Of a stretch of 64,000 nucleotides of DNA, positions 44,671-63,719 are shown piece after piece (the first letter of the stretch is position 1; each line of letters begins with the position of its first letter). The notes beneath the pieces were generated by a model. It saw only the letters and a program-made list of their open reading frames with translations. It ran no database searches and was not told the DNA's origin. The stretch comes from Streptomyces violaceusniger Tu 4113 (lineage in GTDB: Bacteria > Actinomycetota > Actinomycetes > Streptomycetales > Streptomycetaceae): positions 7,068,001 through 7,132,000 of the forward strand of contig NC_015957.1 in NCBI RefSeq assembly GCF_000147815.2, read 5' to 3'. The position numbers were made by a program, and so were the translations under genes.

Positions 44671-45198
44671 TCAGTTGGCCCGGGCGAGTTGGTTCAGGGA
44701 TTGGGATCCGTCCAGAAGAGCGCGCGGAGTCGTGACGATGGGCAGCCGCTCCACGGTCGCGCGGTCCAGCAGGCCGACCTGGGCGAGCACGGCGGCTTGG
44801 TCCCAGTAGACGTGCTCGTACGCGACCGCGGTGCCCTCGAATCCCACGACAGCGATCACCGGGATGTCGACCTTCCTCCCCGTCGCGGCCACGCCGGGGA
44901 GGATCCAGGGGACCTCGATGTCGTGTGTGAACGAGAGCAGCAACTCGTCCACGACGGTCATATCGCCGACCGTCCGGCTGACCGACTCGATGTTCAGGTC
45001 GGCCGCGTTGCGTCCCACGAACCACGTTCGGTAGAAGGACCGGACACCCTCGAAGCCCGTACCGCCCATGCCCGTGGGCACATGCAGAACGGCGGGGTTG
45101 TCACTCATGGTCCGCATGGTGGCATCCACGTCCCGAGTCACGAACTCGGCCTGGGTGTGGGCCTGCCACTGACGCACCATCACTTCTGTATCCGCCAC
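44671..45198 (-). CDS. NTF2-like (SnoaL/ester-cyclase-type) protein
   Basis: 175 residues from a GTG at 45198 preceded by GGGG. The cone-shaped NTF2 fold is suggested by ADTEVMVRQWQAHTQAEF, DATMRTMSDNPAVLHVPTGM, FYRTWFVGRN and VDIPVIAVVGFEG. Related proteins are often found next to dienelactone hydrolase genes, as here (convergent). Catalytic role unproven. The same frame remains open far upstream through the antisense of the repeat protein; that extension is composition-driven and was rejected. Confidence 0.8.
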   Translation of the reverse strand: MADTEVMVRQWQAHTQAEFVTRDVDATMRTMSDNPAVLHVPTGMGGTGFEGVRSFYRTWFVGRNAADLNIESVSRTVGDMTVVDELLLSFTHDIEVPWILPGVAATGRKVDIPVIAVVGFEGTAVAYEHVYWDQAAVLAQVGLLDRATVERLPIVTTPRALLDGSQSLNQLARAN

Positions 45199-45453
45199 AC
45201 GATCCCCAATATCCGATTTGGCGCAGAATAGCACCATTCCCGGGGCGCTCATCCATGGCCGCGGCCGGCCGCCGTCGCCTCGTAAGTCCATATGCCTCGC
45301 GACCTCGCCCGCCGCGTGGTTGAGCCGAAGGGGTGGCCTCGGACGGGTGCGTTGAGCCATCCCGGTGACGGCGGGGCCAGGTCGGTTCCGCCGCGCCCGG
45401 ATGATGTCCGGGGTCAGGGGCCGGGCCCCGCACGGCAATGGAGACGGATCACG

Positions 45454-47319
45454 ATGAAGCAGAAGATGTGGCTGATGGTTCCGGGGGTGTGTGCGGTGGT
45501 ACTGGCCTCCGCCAACGGCGCCCTCGCGGCGGGTCCCGGGGGCGACGGCAACACGGTCCGGCAGGCCACGGACTGTCCCTCCACCAACAGCGGGCCGATC
45601 AATCCAGTCGTCTCCGACTCCCCTGGCGCCTCGGCCGACGTCGACCTCTCGGCCCGCTGCGGCAACTCCGTACGCAACAAGGGGAAGATGTCCGGCAATG
45701 CCGTCGATCAGTCCGCGCAGTGCGAAGCGGCCAACAGTGGATTGATCAACCCCCTCATCGAGGATTCCCCGGGTGCCTCGGCGGACTCCACCTTCTCGGC
45801 CGACTGCGGCAACGACCTGCGCAACAAGGGGGAGCTGACCAACAGCGCCGTCGGTCAGTCGGCGAAGTGCGACGCGACCAACAGTGGACTGATCAACCCC
45901 GAGATCACCGGTTCCCCGGGAGGCTCGGCGGACGCCACGTTCTCGGCCCGCTGCGACAACGACCTGCGCAACAACGGGAAACTGACCGACAGCGCCGTCG
46001 ATCAGTCCGCGGACTGCGACGCGACCAACACCGGCGCCCTCGATGACCCCGGTGTGGACCTGTCTCCGGGCGGTTCGGCGGACACCACGGTCGCGACACG
46101 GTGTGGCAACGACCTGACCAACCACGGCACGGTCCACGACAGCACCATCGGCCAGCAGGGCGAATGCGACGCCGCCAACACCGGCATGCTCAACCCCGAC
46201 CTGGGGGACTCCTCGCCCGGCGGCACGCTCGACACCCGGATCGTCGGCCGCTGCGACAACACGGTCGCCAACACCGGGACCGTGGAGCACAGCGACATCG
46301 GCCAGCGGGGCGACTGCGACGCGCTCAACGCCGGCGAGGTCAACACCGGCTTCAACGACGACTCCCCGGGCTCCTCGACGGACCTGGACGTGGCGGCCCG
46401 CTGCCATAACGATGTGGCCAACGACGGCCGGATGGACCGTGTCACCCTGGGCCAGAGCGACGCCTGCGACAGCTCCAACAGTGGTCTCTTCGGCGGCGGC
46501 GTCAGCGGCTCCCCAGGAGGCTCGGTGGACGCCACGTACACGGTCCGCTGCGACAACGACCTGCGCAACGAGGGACGCCTGACCGACAGCGCCGTCGATC
46601 AGTCCGCGGAGTGCGACGCGACCAACACCGGCGCTCTCGACGCCCCCGAGGTGTTGAACTCTCCAGGCGGTTCGGTCGACACCACGATCGAGGCCCGGTG
46701 CGGCAACACGCTGGCCAACCAGGGCACGGTCCACGACAGCACCTTCGGCCAGCGGGAGGAGTGCGACACCGCCAACAACGGGGACATCAACTCCGACGTG
46801 GGGCCCCTCTCGCCCGGAGCCACCTCCGAGACCCAGGTCTCCGGCCAGTGCGACAACAAGGTCACCAATGCCGGGGCGGTGGAGCACAGCGACATCGGCC
46901 AGCAGGGCGACTGTGACGCCGCCAACAACGGTGCCGTCGACACCGGCTTCAACATCACCTCCCCGGGCTCCTCGACGGACCTGGATGTGGCGGCCCAATG
47001 CCGCAACGACGTGGCCAACGACGGCCGCATGGAGCGCGTCGACCTGACCCAGAACGACACCTGCGACAGCTCCAACAACGGTCTCTTCGGTAACAGCCTC
47101 AACAATTCCCCGGGGGCGAGCGCCGACCTCACCACGCGTGTCGACTGCGACAACCAGGTGTCCAACAAGGGCCGGCTGCACGACGAGACCTTGGGCCAGG
47201 ACAACGGGTGCGCCGCCACCAACAACCAGGACATCGACCTCGCCATCATTGACCAGCCCGGTGCCGACGAGGACACCACCGTCGCGACGCGCTGCCGCAA
47301 CCTCGTCGACCGGAAGTAG
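45454..47319 (+). CDS. Secreted protein of twelve ~50-residue two-cysteine repeats, unrecognised family
   Basis: 621 residues. A signal peptide (MKQKMWLMVPGVCAVVLASA, then NGALA) is followed by a short Gly/Asp linker. Then come eleven full repeats and one partial repeat of 49-50 residues, starting at residue 41. The consensus is C-D-A-x-N-x-G, about 10 variable residues, S-P-G-x-S-x-D, about 7, R-C-x-N-x-L-x-N-x-G, about 8, G-Q. Each repeat has two Cys at fixed spacing (about 28 apart), so disulfides or metal links are likely. Repeats 3-6 (residues 139-337) and 7-10 (338-536) match with an exact period of 199 residues, showing a block duplication. The N-x-G and G-Q spacing recalls curli-type amyloid repeats and beta-solenoids, but no homology is claimed. 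It has no sortase motif. It stands alone with its own GGAG site. Confidence 0.85.
   Translation: MKQKMWLMVPGVCAVVLASANGALAAGPGGDGNTVRQATDCPSTNSGPINPVVSDSPGASADVDLSARCGNSVRNKGKMSGNAVDQSAQCEAANSGLINPLIEDSPGASADSTFSADCGNDLRNKGELTNSAVGQSAKCDATNSGLINPEITGSPGGSADATFSARCDNDLRNNGKLTDSAVDQSADCDATNTGALDDPGVDLSPGGSADTTVATRCGNDLTNHGTVHDSTIGQQGECDAANTGMLNPDLGDSSPGGTLDTRIVGRCDNTVANTGTVEHSDIGQRGDCDALNAGEVNTGFNDDSPGSSTDLDVAARCHNDVANDGRMDRVTLGQSDACDSSNSGLFGGGVSGSPGGSVDATYTVRCDNDLRNEGRLTDSAVDQSAECDATNTGALDAPEVLNSPGGSVDTTIEARCGNTLANQGTVHDSTFGQREECDTANNGDINSDVGPLSPGATSETQVSGQCDNKVTNAGAVEHSDIGQQGDCDAANNGAVDTGFNITSPGSSTDLDVAAQCRNDVANDGRMERVDLTQNDTCDSSNNGLFGNSLNNSPGASADLTTRVDCDNQVSNKGRLHDETLGQDNGCAATNNQDIDLAIIDQPGADEDTTVATRCRNLVDRK
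45868..47061 (+). repeat. Two tandem 597-bp blocks inside the repeat-protein gene
   Basis: Block 1 (45868-46464) and block 2 (46465-47061) each encode four 49-50-residue repeats in the same order, for example GTVHDSTIGQQGECDAANTG versus GTVHDSTFGQREECDTANNG, and SPGSSTDLDVAARCHNDVAN versus SPGSSTDLDVAAQCRNDVAN. Confidence 0.8.
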
Positions 47320-47434
47320 TCCCGGCACACCCGGCGGCCGTCCTGCGCCGGAGACCTCGGCGGCCGTACCTGGTGGTCCGATGCCGCCGGGGTCAGCGTG
47401 TCGGGGACCGGCCCCCGCGGGTCGATCGATCCCG

Positions 47435-49363
47435 TCAGTGGCCGTGGCCGCCACTGTGGCCGCCACCGCCGTGATCGGCACCGCCGTGGTCGTCGTGGTC
47501 GACGATCGTCCATGGGCGCATCAGGTCGTCGTCTTCGTGTTCGAGAATGTGGCAGTGGTGGACGTACGTCGCCGGGAGCTCGGTGCCACTGTCCGGAATC
47601 GACGCGATCGTGCCCGTCGGCGGGGTGAATTCCTCGATGAGGATTCTGGTCACCGTCTCCGGATAGGACTTGACGGTGTCCTTGTAGGACCGTGCCTCAT
47701 CCGGGTCCGCCGGAATCGGTGGGCCGGTGAGGTAGTTCACCAACACCGGTCGGTCCTCCGGTTTGCGGCCACCGTCGATCCACTTTTCGTAATCCGCCTG
47801 GTAGCCGGCCGCGTCGATCGGCTGCCTGTTCAGCACCTGGAAGTTGACGAGGTGGACATGCATCGGGTGTGCGTCGTGGTTGGGATTGATGTACTCCCAG
47901 ATCTCGGCCGAGCCCGCCTTGATGAAGTCCTGGGACGGTTCCATGAATGGCACCGCGTTGAGCGTCATGGTGCCGAAGAGCTTGTGCTGGTACAGCACCC
48001 ATTCGCGTCGACGGGTGTGCGGCTTCAGCTCGATGGGGGCGATCTCCGGCAGCTTGAGCTTCTTGGGCGGCGTCGTCTTGTCTCCGCCTCCGGACAATCG
48101 CTTGGTGACCTGGAATTGCATGATTTCCGAGATCTCCGGTCCATCGCCGCCGGGGAAGTGGACCGGCGCGTTGTAGTTCGTCAGCGTCACGTTCGTGCCC
48201 ATGGGCATCTGGCTGAAGTCGACGATCAGGTCGTACCGCTCGGCCGGCGAGATCAGGAAGTTCAGCATGGGCAATGGAGGACGGAAGCCGCCGTCGGTGC
48301 CGATCAGCCAGAACGGCAGTGTGGGCTGGGGCAGTACGTCCCTGAGAACGTCGAACTTCAGCCGCCAGAAGCGCGCGTTCGAAGCGTTGAGAATGCGCAG
48401 CCGGTAGCGTCGCGGCTCGACGGCCAGGAAGGGGTACGCCTTTCCATTGACGACCGGAGTGTCCTCGCCTTCCCGCTGGGTCATGGTGTAGGCGAGCGAG
48501 CCGTCCCGGCCGAAGGTCCGGTCCTGCAGGATGAGGGGGACCTCGAATTCGCCTTGCGGCAGCCCGAGCCGCTCGTCGGCGGGGTCACGAACGAGGTAGA
48601 GACCGGCAAGGCCCGCATAGACGTTGACGCTGGTCATCCCCATGCCGTGGTCGTGATACCAGAGCATGGCCGAACGCTCGTGATTGGTGTAGCCGGAGAT
48701 CGCTTCGTTGGCCTTGACCCGGCTCGGGTCCAGGGTGGAGTAGGACTCCGCGTGGAAGCCGTCCGGGCTGAACGACTGCAGCGGCATTCCGTCGGACTGC
48801 GGCGCTGTGAAACCGCCGTGCTGGTGCACGACGTTCCACACGTTGATATGCGGGGGAAAAGGCGGTTTGCTCTTGTAGGGAGGCGGAGCGATCGGGGTGA
48901 GCTGGGGATCCCCGCTGCGAATGGCGTCGATCACGAACTGGAACAGGTGGGTGGTCGGCAGCTCGTTGCGGTACTTGACGACCGTCGGGTGATCCTTGAT
49001 CACGCTGATCGTCGGCCCGAGATAGCCCATGCCGATCGCCCTGTGCGGATGGTGCGGATTCTTGGCCCAATAACCCCACACGGTCGCGGGCCCGAGATCC
49101 CGGTGGAAGCGCCACGAGCCCTGCCGCATCGTGATTTCGTAGTAGTCGGCGCCCGGATAGACGGAAGGGTCCGGGATGGCCGTCAGCGGCGTGGGCAGCG
49201 GGTCAACGTACTTCTCCAGCGGAGGGGTCTGCGTCACCGGGGTGTCCGCAGACCCTGTCCCATGAGCCGGCGACGCATACGCCCGCGCCCCCAGAACACC
49301 CTGCGGAATCATGGCCGCACTCCCCATGGCGCCGGCCATGAGGAAATTCCTTCGCCCAACCAT
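47435..49363 (-). CDS. Tat-exported multicopper oxidase (CotA/phenoxazinone-synthase-like)
   Basis: 642 residues. The ATG at 49363 gives a Tat leader (VGRRNFLMAGAMGSAAM). All copper-binding motifs are present: NVVHQHGGF, LWYHDHGMGMT, DAHPMHVHLVNFQ and YVHHCHILEHEDDDLM with the type-1 Cys and Met ligand. It should oxidise phenols, aminophenols or metals outside the cell with O2. The last 20 residues are His/Asp/Gly-rich (HDDHGGADHGGGGHSGGHGH), a likely metal-binding tail not required by the fold. It converges on the repeat-protein gene with 115 bp between. Confidence 0.92.
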   Translation of the reverse strand: MVGRRNFLMAGAMGSAAMIPQGVLGARAYASPAHGTGSADTPVTQTPPLEKYVDPLPTPLTAIPDPSVYPGADYYEITMRQGSWRFHRDLGPATVWGYWAKNPHHPHRAIGMGYLGPTISVIKDHPTVVKYRNELPTTHLFQFVIDAIRSGDPQLTPIAPPPYKSKPPFPPHINVWNVVHQHGGFTAPQSDGMPLQSFSPDGFHAESYSTLDPSRVKANEAISGYTNHERSAMLWYHDHGMGMTSVNVYAGLAGLYLVRDPADERLGLPQGEFEVPLILQDRTFGRDGSLAYTMTQREGEDTPVVNGKAYPFLAVEPRRYRLRILNASNARFWRLKFDVLRDVLPQPTLPFWLIGTDGGFRPPLPMLNFLISPAERYDLIVDFSQMPMGTNVTLTNYNAPVHFPGGDGPEISEIMQFQVTKRLSGGGDKTTPPKKLKLPEIAPIELKPHTRRREWVLYQHKLFGTMTLNAVPFMEPSQDFIKAGSAEIWEYINPNHDAHPMHVHLVNFQVLNRQPIDAAGYQADYEKWIDGGRKPEDRPVLVNYLTGPPIPADPDEARSYKDTVKSYPETVTRILIEEFTPPTGTIASIPDSGTELPATYVHHCHILEHEDDDLMRPWTIVDHDDHGGADHGGGGHSGGHGH

Positions 49364-49556
49364 TGTCTCCAGCCTTTCCCTCGCCTCAGGTAACGCCCAA
49401 AGGGATACAGGGCTGGTTCGGGACGTTGCCGCAGCGCGCCGGTCCGGTCCGGGATAGCCACTCATTGAGCCGATCTCAGCGGAAATTCGGTCGATATGAG
49501 GGCCGGGACGCCGGTCGGCCGGAGAGCGAACGGCGGGCGTCCCGGCCGGTGTGCGA

Positions 49557-60653: not shown

Positions 60654-63572
60654 TCAGCCGGACTGGACATCGCCGGGCTGGACATCGCCGGACCGGACAT
60701 CGCCGGGCTGCGTTTCGGCCTGGATGTCGGCGACGAGCTTCTTCGCCGCCGCCAGCTTCGGCCCGTAGGCCGCGGGATCCGTCGCGTTGAGCGCGGTGAA
60801 GATCTCCACGGCTTCCTGCGCCCGCGCGAGCGCCTGGTCCTTCCGGCCGGACTGCCGCAGGTAGGGGATCGTCGGATACATCAGCCAGTCGCCCAGCCCT
60901 CCGCGATACCTCCCGGGGTTCTCGGTGGCGAGTTGGCGGAGCAGGTCGGTGGCCTCGACGGCACGCTGTGCGCCTTGGCTGTGGTCGGGTTTGCCCCACA
61001 GAGCCTGGGCCAGGTTGATCAGCGTCCAGGCCTTTCGGTAGCGGAGGTCATCAGATCCGGGCTGTTCACCGATCAGCTTGTCGTAGAGGCCGAGGGCCTC
61101 CTGCATGCGAGCGATGGCCTCGTCGTGGCGGCCACTGCCCATCAGATACGTGCCCGCCGGGAACACCAGCCACTGAGCGAGCCCGGGCCGGTAGGTGGGT
61201 GTCCTGGTGGCGAGTTGGCGGAGCAGGTCGGTGGCCTCGACCGCACGCTGTGCGCCTTGGGCATGGTCGGGTTTGCCCCACAGAGCCTGGGCCAGGTTGA
61301 CCAGCGTCCACGCCTTTCGGTAGAGCAGCTCCTCAGCTCCGGGTTGCTCATGGATCAGTGCGTCGTAGAGGCCGAGGGCCTCCTGCATACGGGCGATGGC
61401 CTCATCGTGGTGGCCACTGCCCATCAGGTACGTGCCCGCCGGGAACACCAGCCACTGCGCGAGCGTCGCCCGGAAGCCGGAGTCCAGGGCCACGACCTCG
61501 CGGGCAACGGCGATCGCGTCGGCCGCCCGGGCATTGGCCTCCTCGCGCACCGGGCCCGGCAGGTTCCAGAGGGTCTGGGCCCGCGCCACCAGCGCTCGGG
61601 CGTCCGCGATGCGGGCCGACGCCGTCGGCGTGGCCGTGTCGTAGAAACACGTCTGGAGCCTTGGCACCTCACCGATCTCGCTGCCGAAGTCGACCCGGTA
61701 GAGCGATACGCTCCCAGCCGTCGACGGCGCCGCGGCCGCCAGTTCGGCGTACGACCACCAGGGCTGTCCGAGCCGCTGCGGTGCCGACCACTGGGGCTGC
61801 TGGGGATCCCGGTAGATGGTCTGAACGCGGCTGTCCCGGCCCTGCCAGAACCAGTTGAGCCGCCGGTCCCCGGTCACCGCGGGGACGATCGTGTAGGGCT
61901 CGCCCCAATTGGTGAGGTGCTGCGGGGTGATCTCGGCCGGGGCGCTCCAGCCGCCGTCGTAGTGGATGTTCCACATGGCTCCGAAGGCGCCCTGCCAGAC
62001 CACATCGGCCTTTCCGTCGCCGGTGCCCATGGCGTGGATGGACGACGCGAAGTCTTTCCCGGGGAATTCGGCGATCTGGGCGGGTGCGCTCCACGCGGGG
62101 ACGGGCGCGTGGGAATCGTAGGTGACGCTGTGCACCGTGCGCTCGTTCATGGTCCACACCGCCAGCACCACCCCGGGCGCCGGACAGGCCACCGCGAGGT
62201 CCGAGTTCAGCGAAATGGCGCCTGCCGGGGTCGCCGCCTGCGGTGGCCCCCATGCCCCCTTGGCGTCCTGGAACGCGGCCATCAGCGTGCCGGTGCCATT
62301 GTCCTGCCACATCACGACGACCGAGCCCGGTGAGGCGGCGGCCTCGCCGAACGAGACATCGGTGGTGCCGCCGCTCACCTCGACCGGGGCGTCCAGCCAT
62401 CCGGTCGGCCGGGTGGGGTCGGTGCGCGTGGCGTAGATGCCGCCCTGCTTGCCCCGCATCACCACGGTGATCAGACCCGGCCCCGACGACACGGCGCACG
62501 GCGTGGGTTCCTTTCGCACCGTGTTCTCCGCGCTGATGGCCACCGACGGCTTCCAGGCCGGTGCGGCGGCGGTGGCGTCGTAGGACGTGGTGCGGAGCTG
62601 GTCCTTGTCCGGGTCCCGCCACACCAGCACGGTGTGCCCCGGCCGGTCCGATGCCGCGGCCAGGGTCACGATGCTGTCCGGCACCTCCACCGGGGTCCAG
62701 GGGGACCATCCGGGTGTGCGCGGGTCCTTGGCCCAGTGGGCCACGGTGTCGTGGAGGCCCATGAGTTTGGCCAGACCCGTCCTGACCCGCATATCGGCAC
62801 GCAGCAGATCGGCGTAGTAGGCGCGGGCGTCGTCATACTCGGCCTGCCCTCCCGGACGCCACCCGACTTCGGTGTGCCCCGTGTCGTAGCCGGTGATGTG
62901 GTCCACGCACTGGTGGGCCAGGAAGTAGCTGCCGCGGTTGTCAGGACCGCCCCCGGTATACGGTTCGATGGCCTGGTCGGCGTGTTGGAACACCCAGTCC
63001 AGCCGCGCCGCGTGCCGGGTCAGCTCCTCGCGGGCCAGCCGGTCCTCGCGGTACTGCGGATTGAGACCGGCGATCACGCCGAACCGGACGGTCAGCACAT
63101 AGACGTAGGCGATATACGCCAGCCGGTGATCGAAGACGCTTTCCGGCGCATTCGGATCCGGGCGGTAGAAGTACGAGTCGCCCTCCAGCAGCGTATTCGC
63201 CGCCAGCCGTGAGTTGTTGTCCGCGTTGGACCGCAGCAGGGGGTCCTTGCGCCCGTCGGCGACCCAGGCGCTGAGCTCGTCCATGGCCGTGCGGGCCCGC
63301 CCGCGCAGCCCCTCCAGATCGCGCCGCAGATTGAGGACATACGCCTGCTGCTCGACCCTGACCGCCTGTTTCACGGCCTCGAGCACCTCGTCGAACCGCC
63401 CCTGGAGGGCGACGAAATCCTGGTGCAGCACCTCCAGCCGGGCCAGGATCTGCTCTTCGGGAGTGGGGGTGTGACTGCCGAGGCTGACGAAGGCGACGAT
63501 GCCCTGGTATGCCTCGTACGCCTTCTTGCCGGCTTCATACACCGCCAGTGCGGTGACGATGGGCGTGGCCAT
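60654..63572 (-). CDS. Large coiled-coil / beta-propeller / TPR protein, unrecognised family
   Basis: 972 residues from the ATG at 63572 (GGGGG site upstream); no signal peptide. Residues ~1-100 are helical with a likely coiled coil (VLHQDFVALQGRFDEVLEAV). Residues ~100-280 form an unfamiliar, mostly helical domain with aromatic-rich words (DSYFYRPDPNAPES, FLAHQCVDHITGYD). Residues ~290-640 carry repeated blades of the type TVLVWRDPDKDQL, VVVMWQDNGTGTL, VLAVWTMNERTV and ADVVWQGAFGAM, as in sialidase/lectin-type propellers. Residues ~650-950 are TPR-like, including two nearly identical 94-residue copies. The tail is a G-D-V-Q-P repeat. The layout suggests a binding scaffold or a toxin/effector-like protein; no catalytic residues are recognisable. 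It stands alone. Confidence 0.8.
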   Translation of the reverse strand: MATPIVTALAVYEAGKKAYEAYQGIVAFVSLGSHTPTPEEQILARLEVLHQDFVALQGRFDEVLEAVKQAVRVEQQAYVLNLRRDLEGLRGRARTAMDELSAWVADGRKDPLLRSNADNNSRLAANTLLEGDSYFYRPDPNAPESVFDHRLAYIAYVYVLTVRFGVIAGLNPQYREDRLAREELTRHAARLDWVFQHADQAIEPYTGGGPDNRGSYFLAHQCVDHITGYDTGHTEVGWRPGGQAEYDDARAYYADLLRADMRVRTGLAKLMGLHDTVAHWAKDPRTPGWSPWTPVEVPDSIVTLAAASDRPGHTVLVWRDPDKDQLRTTSYDATAAAPAWKPSVAISAENTVRKEPTPCAVSSGPGLITVVMRGKQGGIYATRTDPTRPTGWLDAPVEVSGGTTDVSFGEAAASPGSVVVMWQDNGTGTLMAAFQDAKGAWGPPQAATPAGAISLNSDLAVACPAPGVVLAVWTMNERTVHSVTYDSHAPVPAWSAPAQIAEFPGKDFASSIHAMGTGDGKADVVWQGAFGAMWNIHYDGGWSAPAEITPQHLTNWGEPYTIVPAVTGDRRLNWFWQGRDSRVQTIYRDPQQPQWSAPQRLGQPWWSYAELAAAAPSTAGSVSLYRVDFGSEIGEVPRLQTCFYDTATPTASARIADARALVARAQTLWNLPGPVREEANARAADAIAVAREVVALDSGFRATLAQWLVFPAGTYLMGSGHHDEAIARMQEALGLYDALIHEQPGAEELLYRKAWTLVNLAQALWGKPDHAQGAQRAVEATDLLRQLATRTPTYRPGLAQWLVFPAGTYLMGSGRHDEAIARMQEALGLYDKLIGEQPGSDDLRYRKAWTLINLAQALWGKPDHSQGAQRAVEATDLLRQLATENPGRYRGGLGDWLMYPTIPYLRQSGRKDQALARAQEAVEIFTALNATDPAAYGPKLAAAKKLVADIQAETQPGDVRSGDVQPGDVQSG
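60900..61463 (-). repeat. Two tandem 282-bp copies within the TPR region
   Basis: Copies 61182-61463 and 60900-61181 encode near-identical 94-residue units, both starting LAQWLVFPAGTYLMGSG and containing HDEAIARMQEALGLYD and GAQRAVEATDLLRQLAT. High nucleotide identity indicates recent duplication. Confidence 0.85.
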
Positions 63573-63719
63573 ATCGGTGTTCCCCCCTCGGACTGTGCCC
63601 CCCGCGGGCACGCCTGAGCCAAGTGAACCACCGGACAAGGACACTTATGGTGGAAATGTCCTTGAGCGCCCCCTCCTGAGCGCCCCCCTGAGCGCGGAGC
63701 GGCCGTGGCGCCGATCGGG

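Follow-up and report, generated by a model that had tools for sequence, protein, structure and literature searches.

Chaplins (PF03777, ChpA-C) are exported, carry two Cys per domain in an SPG..CGN..G order and exist in multidomain forms, and the curli protein CsgA is built of strand-turn-strand units with Q and N-x-A/G. FapC of Pseudomonas has ~50-residue units per layer, conserved Asn/Gln and imperfect repeats (according to the available part of PMC12392863). Together with beta-helix adhesins (e.g., the HMW1 secretion domain), these are among the closest known systems of the protein described here, which is encoded by the open reading frame (ORF) at 45454-47319 on the plus strand of a 64,000-nucleotide stretch of Streptomyces violaceusniger Tu 4113 (contig NC_015957.1; this whole stretch is the window, and positions are counted along it). 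The 621-residue repeat protein shares with the first three of these systems the features just listed. It is unlike the chaplins in being hydrophilic and acidic, with twelve units, no PF03777 match and no sorting motif. It differs from FapC, whose three repeats are separated by linkers and for which the available part of PMC12392863 holds 0 mentions of “cysteine,” in that its twelve units have no linkers and two Cys each. The CsgA units, at ~20 residues (same partial source), contrast with the ~50 residues of the units here.

The ORF is a real gene: a sister genome (G383) retains it in place, 90% identical and with every Cys kept, and nonsynonymous divergence (dN) is lower than synonymous divergence (dS), at 0.052 versus 0.142 by NG86 and 0.045 versus 0.36 by YN00. 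Substitutions relative to the 623-residue G383 orthologue number 39/27/64 by codon position, and ~270 bases upstream of the gene can be aligned with G383 at ~90%. The ATG start lies downstream of a GGAGA, and the signal-peptide pattern MxQKxWLMVPGVCAVVLA is kept in relatives. An antisense frame of 936 residues (44671-47481, minus strand) spans the locus; we reject it for this stretch because the plus frame has a ribosome site, a signal peptide, homologues and a dN below dS. A developmental-sigma promoter, for which we searched by eye upstream of the gene with the consensus, was dropped for want of a -35 match.

After the signal peptide, the protein consists of twelve units of 49 to 50 residues with two Cys each and a super-period of 199 residues; frame, coordinates and repeat count are as the initial annotation described them, with the refinement that unit 12 is truncated, ending early after its second Cys (Table 1). 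Of the 25 Cys, residue 13 belongs to the signal peptide and the other 24 to the repeats, where spacings of 28/29 alternate with 21. Self-identity of the mature sequence is 47% at lag 199 and 26 to 27% at lags 49 to 50, whereas the maximum over 500 shuffles (lags 40 to 250) was 14%, with none near the real values. The proposed growth by block duplication is borne out, in that units 3, 4, 5 and 6 are 69, 72, 60 and 74% identical in register to units 7, 8, 9 and 10. Between the two 597-base blocks, the three codon positions differ about equally often (37/39/42), a pattern that points to relaxed constraint after duplication. Single units were duplicated too, since units 1 to 3 are also close to each other (59 to 71% identical). 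Because like-numbered units of the repeat protein and the G383 orthologue are 83 to 95% identical, the block duplication is older than the split between them; P0001 and P0002, the two protein relatives introduced below, are without such a pattern when their unit identities are compared. Overall, the units have diverged (30 to 74% identity) and are not perfect repeats. The G-Q word ascribed to the repeat holds in part: among 23 units from three proteins the Q is invariant, but the preceding residue is G in just 11.

Table 1. Features of the repeat gene (positions in the window)
Feature	Position	Strand	Remarks
GGAGA, likely ribosome-binding site	45440..45444	+	Read by eye; GGAGG in sister genome G383
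Gene of the 621-residue repeat protein, stop codon included	45454..47319	+	ORF list; orthologue in G383
Signal peptide, residues 1-25, cleavage after ALA	45454..45528	+	By eye
Unit 1 (49 residues)	45574..45720	+	
Unit 2 (49 residues)	45721..45867	+	
199-residue block, first copy, units 3-6	45868..46464	+	
199-residue block, second copy, units 7-10	46465..47061	+	479/597 bases identical to first copy
Unit 11 (49 residues)	47062..47208	+	
Unit 12, truncated (36 residues)	47209..47316	+	Both Cys present

The family is very rare and without classification. Profile searches of same-genus genomes found the gene in 2 of 392, the source genome included, and in 1 of 295, 1 of 359 and 1 of 375 in further draws, the source genome each time; the four draws overlap to an unknown extent, and 3 to 4 candidates were scored per listed genome in the full-length searches. 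A same-genus match in genome G014 (expectation value [E], 0.007) was dropped as chance because its frame is interrupted by a stop and coincides in part with another reading frame. With two-unit profiles, 199 genomes of 55 genera returned the source genome and one chance match. Each full-length search of 5.8 billion proteins scored 8,000 candidates, a number that may make the family count too low, and these held two relatives: P0001 (485 residues, nine units), from Streptomyces sp. NPDC048636, and P0002 (554 residues, 17 repeat Cys), whose end leaves the repeat and looks frame-shifted. A two-unit profile search of proteins gave none among 2,314 candidates at E up to 1, scans of genome contigs found no relative of the gene, and a plasmid search gave no match to it. 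That the repeat belongs to no named family also stands: every Pfam and NCBIfam model stays below its cut-off, profile searches place the repeat in no characterised family, and phmmer matched no PDB chain to E 10. The candidates below cut-off were set aside, namely, Pfam TRASH_HVO_1752_C (21.4 bits versus a cut-off of 27; E, 2.8e-4) and Ig_VWA7 (14.8 versus 27), each on one stretch only, and the best NCBIfam scores (12.2 versus 50 and 10.1 versus 35). The protein did not come up in our searches of the open-licence literature.

The best reading of these observations, to which we would give about even chances, is an exported beta-solenoid rod that is stapled internally by disulfides and acts as a structural or adhesive element; the fold is predicted here, and Cys pairing, place and role are inferred. 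In this model, the protein would be exported by the Sec system and lose its signal peptide, and the ~60-kDa chain would coil into a beta-solenoid, each ~50-residue unit making one or two rungs. The invariant C, N, Q and G and the aliphatic positions would face the core, and the variable positions, rich in Asp, Thr and Arg, would face outward. The two Cys of each unit could form an internal disulfide, stapling the rod outside the cell. The rod, its length grown via duplication of single units and of the four-unit block, would serve at the hyphal surface or in the matrix as a structural or adhesive element, an extracellular role to which disulfide staples and a variable acidic face would be suited. 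Internal staples are suggested because every unit has two Cys (12 of 12 here, 12 of 12 in G383 and 9 of 9 in P0001), a regularity better matched by pairs within units than by a network, which makes the extensive cross-linking originally proposed less likely.

A beta-solenoid fold, as first suspected from the repeat, is likely, judging from position patterns and models. Conserved C, N, Q, G and aliphatic positions alternate with positions that vary and often carry a charge; 1 of 143 inward positions is charged versus 77 of 187 outward positions, and two tests of the alternation gave p values of 0.009 and 0.014. AlphaFold2 predicts all-beta, solenoid-like models for both the four-unit block and the full length, with a mean predicted local distance difference test score of 74 to 79. 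Since the units all resemble one another, we think a lyase-type beta-helix enzyme unlikely. Several points weigh against the rod as a whole. The third alternation test (offsets 11 to 20) gave a p value of 0.16, and the inward and outward classes were defined on the same sequences used for the test. AlphaFold2 had few aligned sequences to work from (4 and 6 rows), the mean scores of the five full-length models are 65 to 74, and the two models disagree on strand layout, the block showing one ~21-residue strand per unit and the full model two of 12 to 16. Foldseek found no match to the four-unit block at E of ≤0.001, with a viral structure library included, although a family absent from the VIA-align lists is not thereby excluded. 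No wall anchor was seen, there being no lipobox by eye and no L[PA]xT[GA] sorting motif by pattern search, and the gene is restricted in lineage.

The alternative that survives best, which we consider unlikely, is a secreted matrix protein that is flexible, acidic and largely disordered and in which disulfides close small loops; the solenoid models would then be an AlphaFold2 artefact. The mature protein (60 kDa) is 12.8% Asp, with a pI of 4.05 and a grand average of hydropathy (GRAVY) of -0.64, the two models disagree as noted above, and AlphaFold2 is biased toward beta-solenoids in repeats, yielding confident false ones for perfect repeats (as reported in the available part of PMC11795689). 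The units here, however, are diverged, and neither the alternating conservation nor the near absence of inward charge derives from AlphaFold2.

Could secreted chains instead stack end to end into cross-beta fibres, as in a functional amyloid of the curli or FapC type? On the early comparison with curli, the FapC fibril ranks first and the CsgA fibril fourth in the Foldseek list for the four-unit model. Yet the matches are weak (FapC: E, 3.6e-3; probability, 0.18; template modeling score, 0.14. CsgA: E, 0.29; root mean square deviation, 8.3) and all lie in Foldseek's chance range, and a Pfam scan to E 10, in which HMMER filters drop most weak matches, returned no curlin model. We regard such an amyloid as improbable.

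Equally doubtful to us is a diverged poly-chaplin, in which the unit would descend from a chaplin domain, multiplied twelvefold and turned hydrophilic, and act with few chaplins in the hyphal coat. Unit and chaplin domain share the order SPG, S, CGN, G, C; hhalign places SPG on SPG and CGN on CGN, colinearly; and the two Cys of chaplins are thought to pair internally, ChpE excepted (per the available part of PMC5618241). Against a comparison set of 56 chaplin domain sequences, which came from 26 of 32 loci and did not include own-genome chaplins, the hhalign probability nevertheless is 1 to 2% at best. Column-shuffled decoys reached the real score rarely in one of four tests (1/150) but in 12/150, 48/150 and 5/150 in the others, and in a smaller control that used six decoys per phase in two phases, one of the phase A decoys equalled it. 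Searched against the four repeat proteins, a chaplin profile gave a best domain i-Evalue of 0.078 and whole-sequence E values of 0.0095 (G383) and 0.18 (here), and its alignments were misplaced. The Pfam scan gave no PF03777 match to the repeat protein, which with its GRAVY and pI is not hydrophobic as a mature chaplin would be expected to be. Profile similarity between repeat unit and chaplin domain appears to be near chance. The PF03777 search of the source genome found three chaplin domains, none at the repeat locus. Both gene-bearing genomes have three domains in two genes, one short with two Cys and one long with an LAHTG signal, versus 4 to 18 domains in 20 other genomes; this small chaplin set alongside the repeat gene is suggestive and rests on one lineage. 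In the source genome (G000 C3) they lie at 7654619-7654975 and 7892764-7892922.

Ice-binding beta-solenoids carry a regular T-x-T array on one face. With T-x-T at the one face tested in 2 of 11 units here, 2 of 11 in G383, 0 of 6 in P0001 and 6 of 6 in P0002, we hold an ice-binding role to be very improbable.

The neighbors of the gene are the same in G383, except that a multicopper oxidase gene adjoining it (47435-49465, minus strand; PF07731) is replaced. At that place in G383 (L011:4900-6541) the oxidase is missing, a gene for an AlkZ-like DNA glycosylase is found instead, and only a trace of the oxidase end seems to be left. On the other side, a divergent ORF of 174 residues (44671-45195, minus strand) has no Pfam match at E of 1e-5 and is itself uncommon, since a search at E of 1e-20 found it in 3 of 169 same-genus genomes, the source genome included. 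In the other two, the adjoining ORFs of at least 110 residues include no repeat gene, and transposase-like ORFs, so identified by reading, adjoin it. Farther along, the C-terminal part of a 996-residue ORF (60654-63644, minus strand) repeats a unit like LAQWLVFPAGTYLMGSG.HDEAIARMQEALGLYD.

Even if the protein were merely a rare secreted repeat protein, it would still mark a family without a Pfam or NCBIfam model over cut-off. If the stapled rod is real, it would be a compact natural design in which disulfides lock a beta-solenoid and the number of units sets its length, found in a genus with few kinds of known surface fibres. It is a long shot, in our estimate, that streptomycetes have in this ready-made rod, each unit bearing one Cys pair, a separate third kind of surface fibre in addition to chaplins and rodlins, one that took over coat or adhesion tasks in a lineage whose chaplin set is unusually small. 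With a real rod, the dependence of a few-chaplin lineage on another surface protein would become testable.
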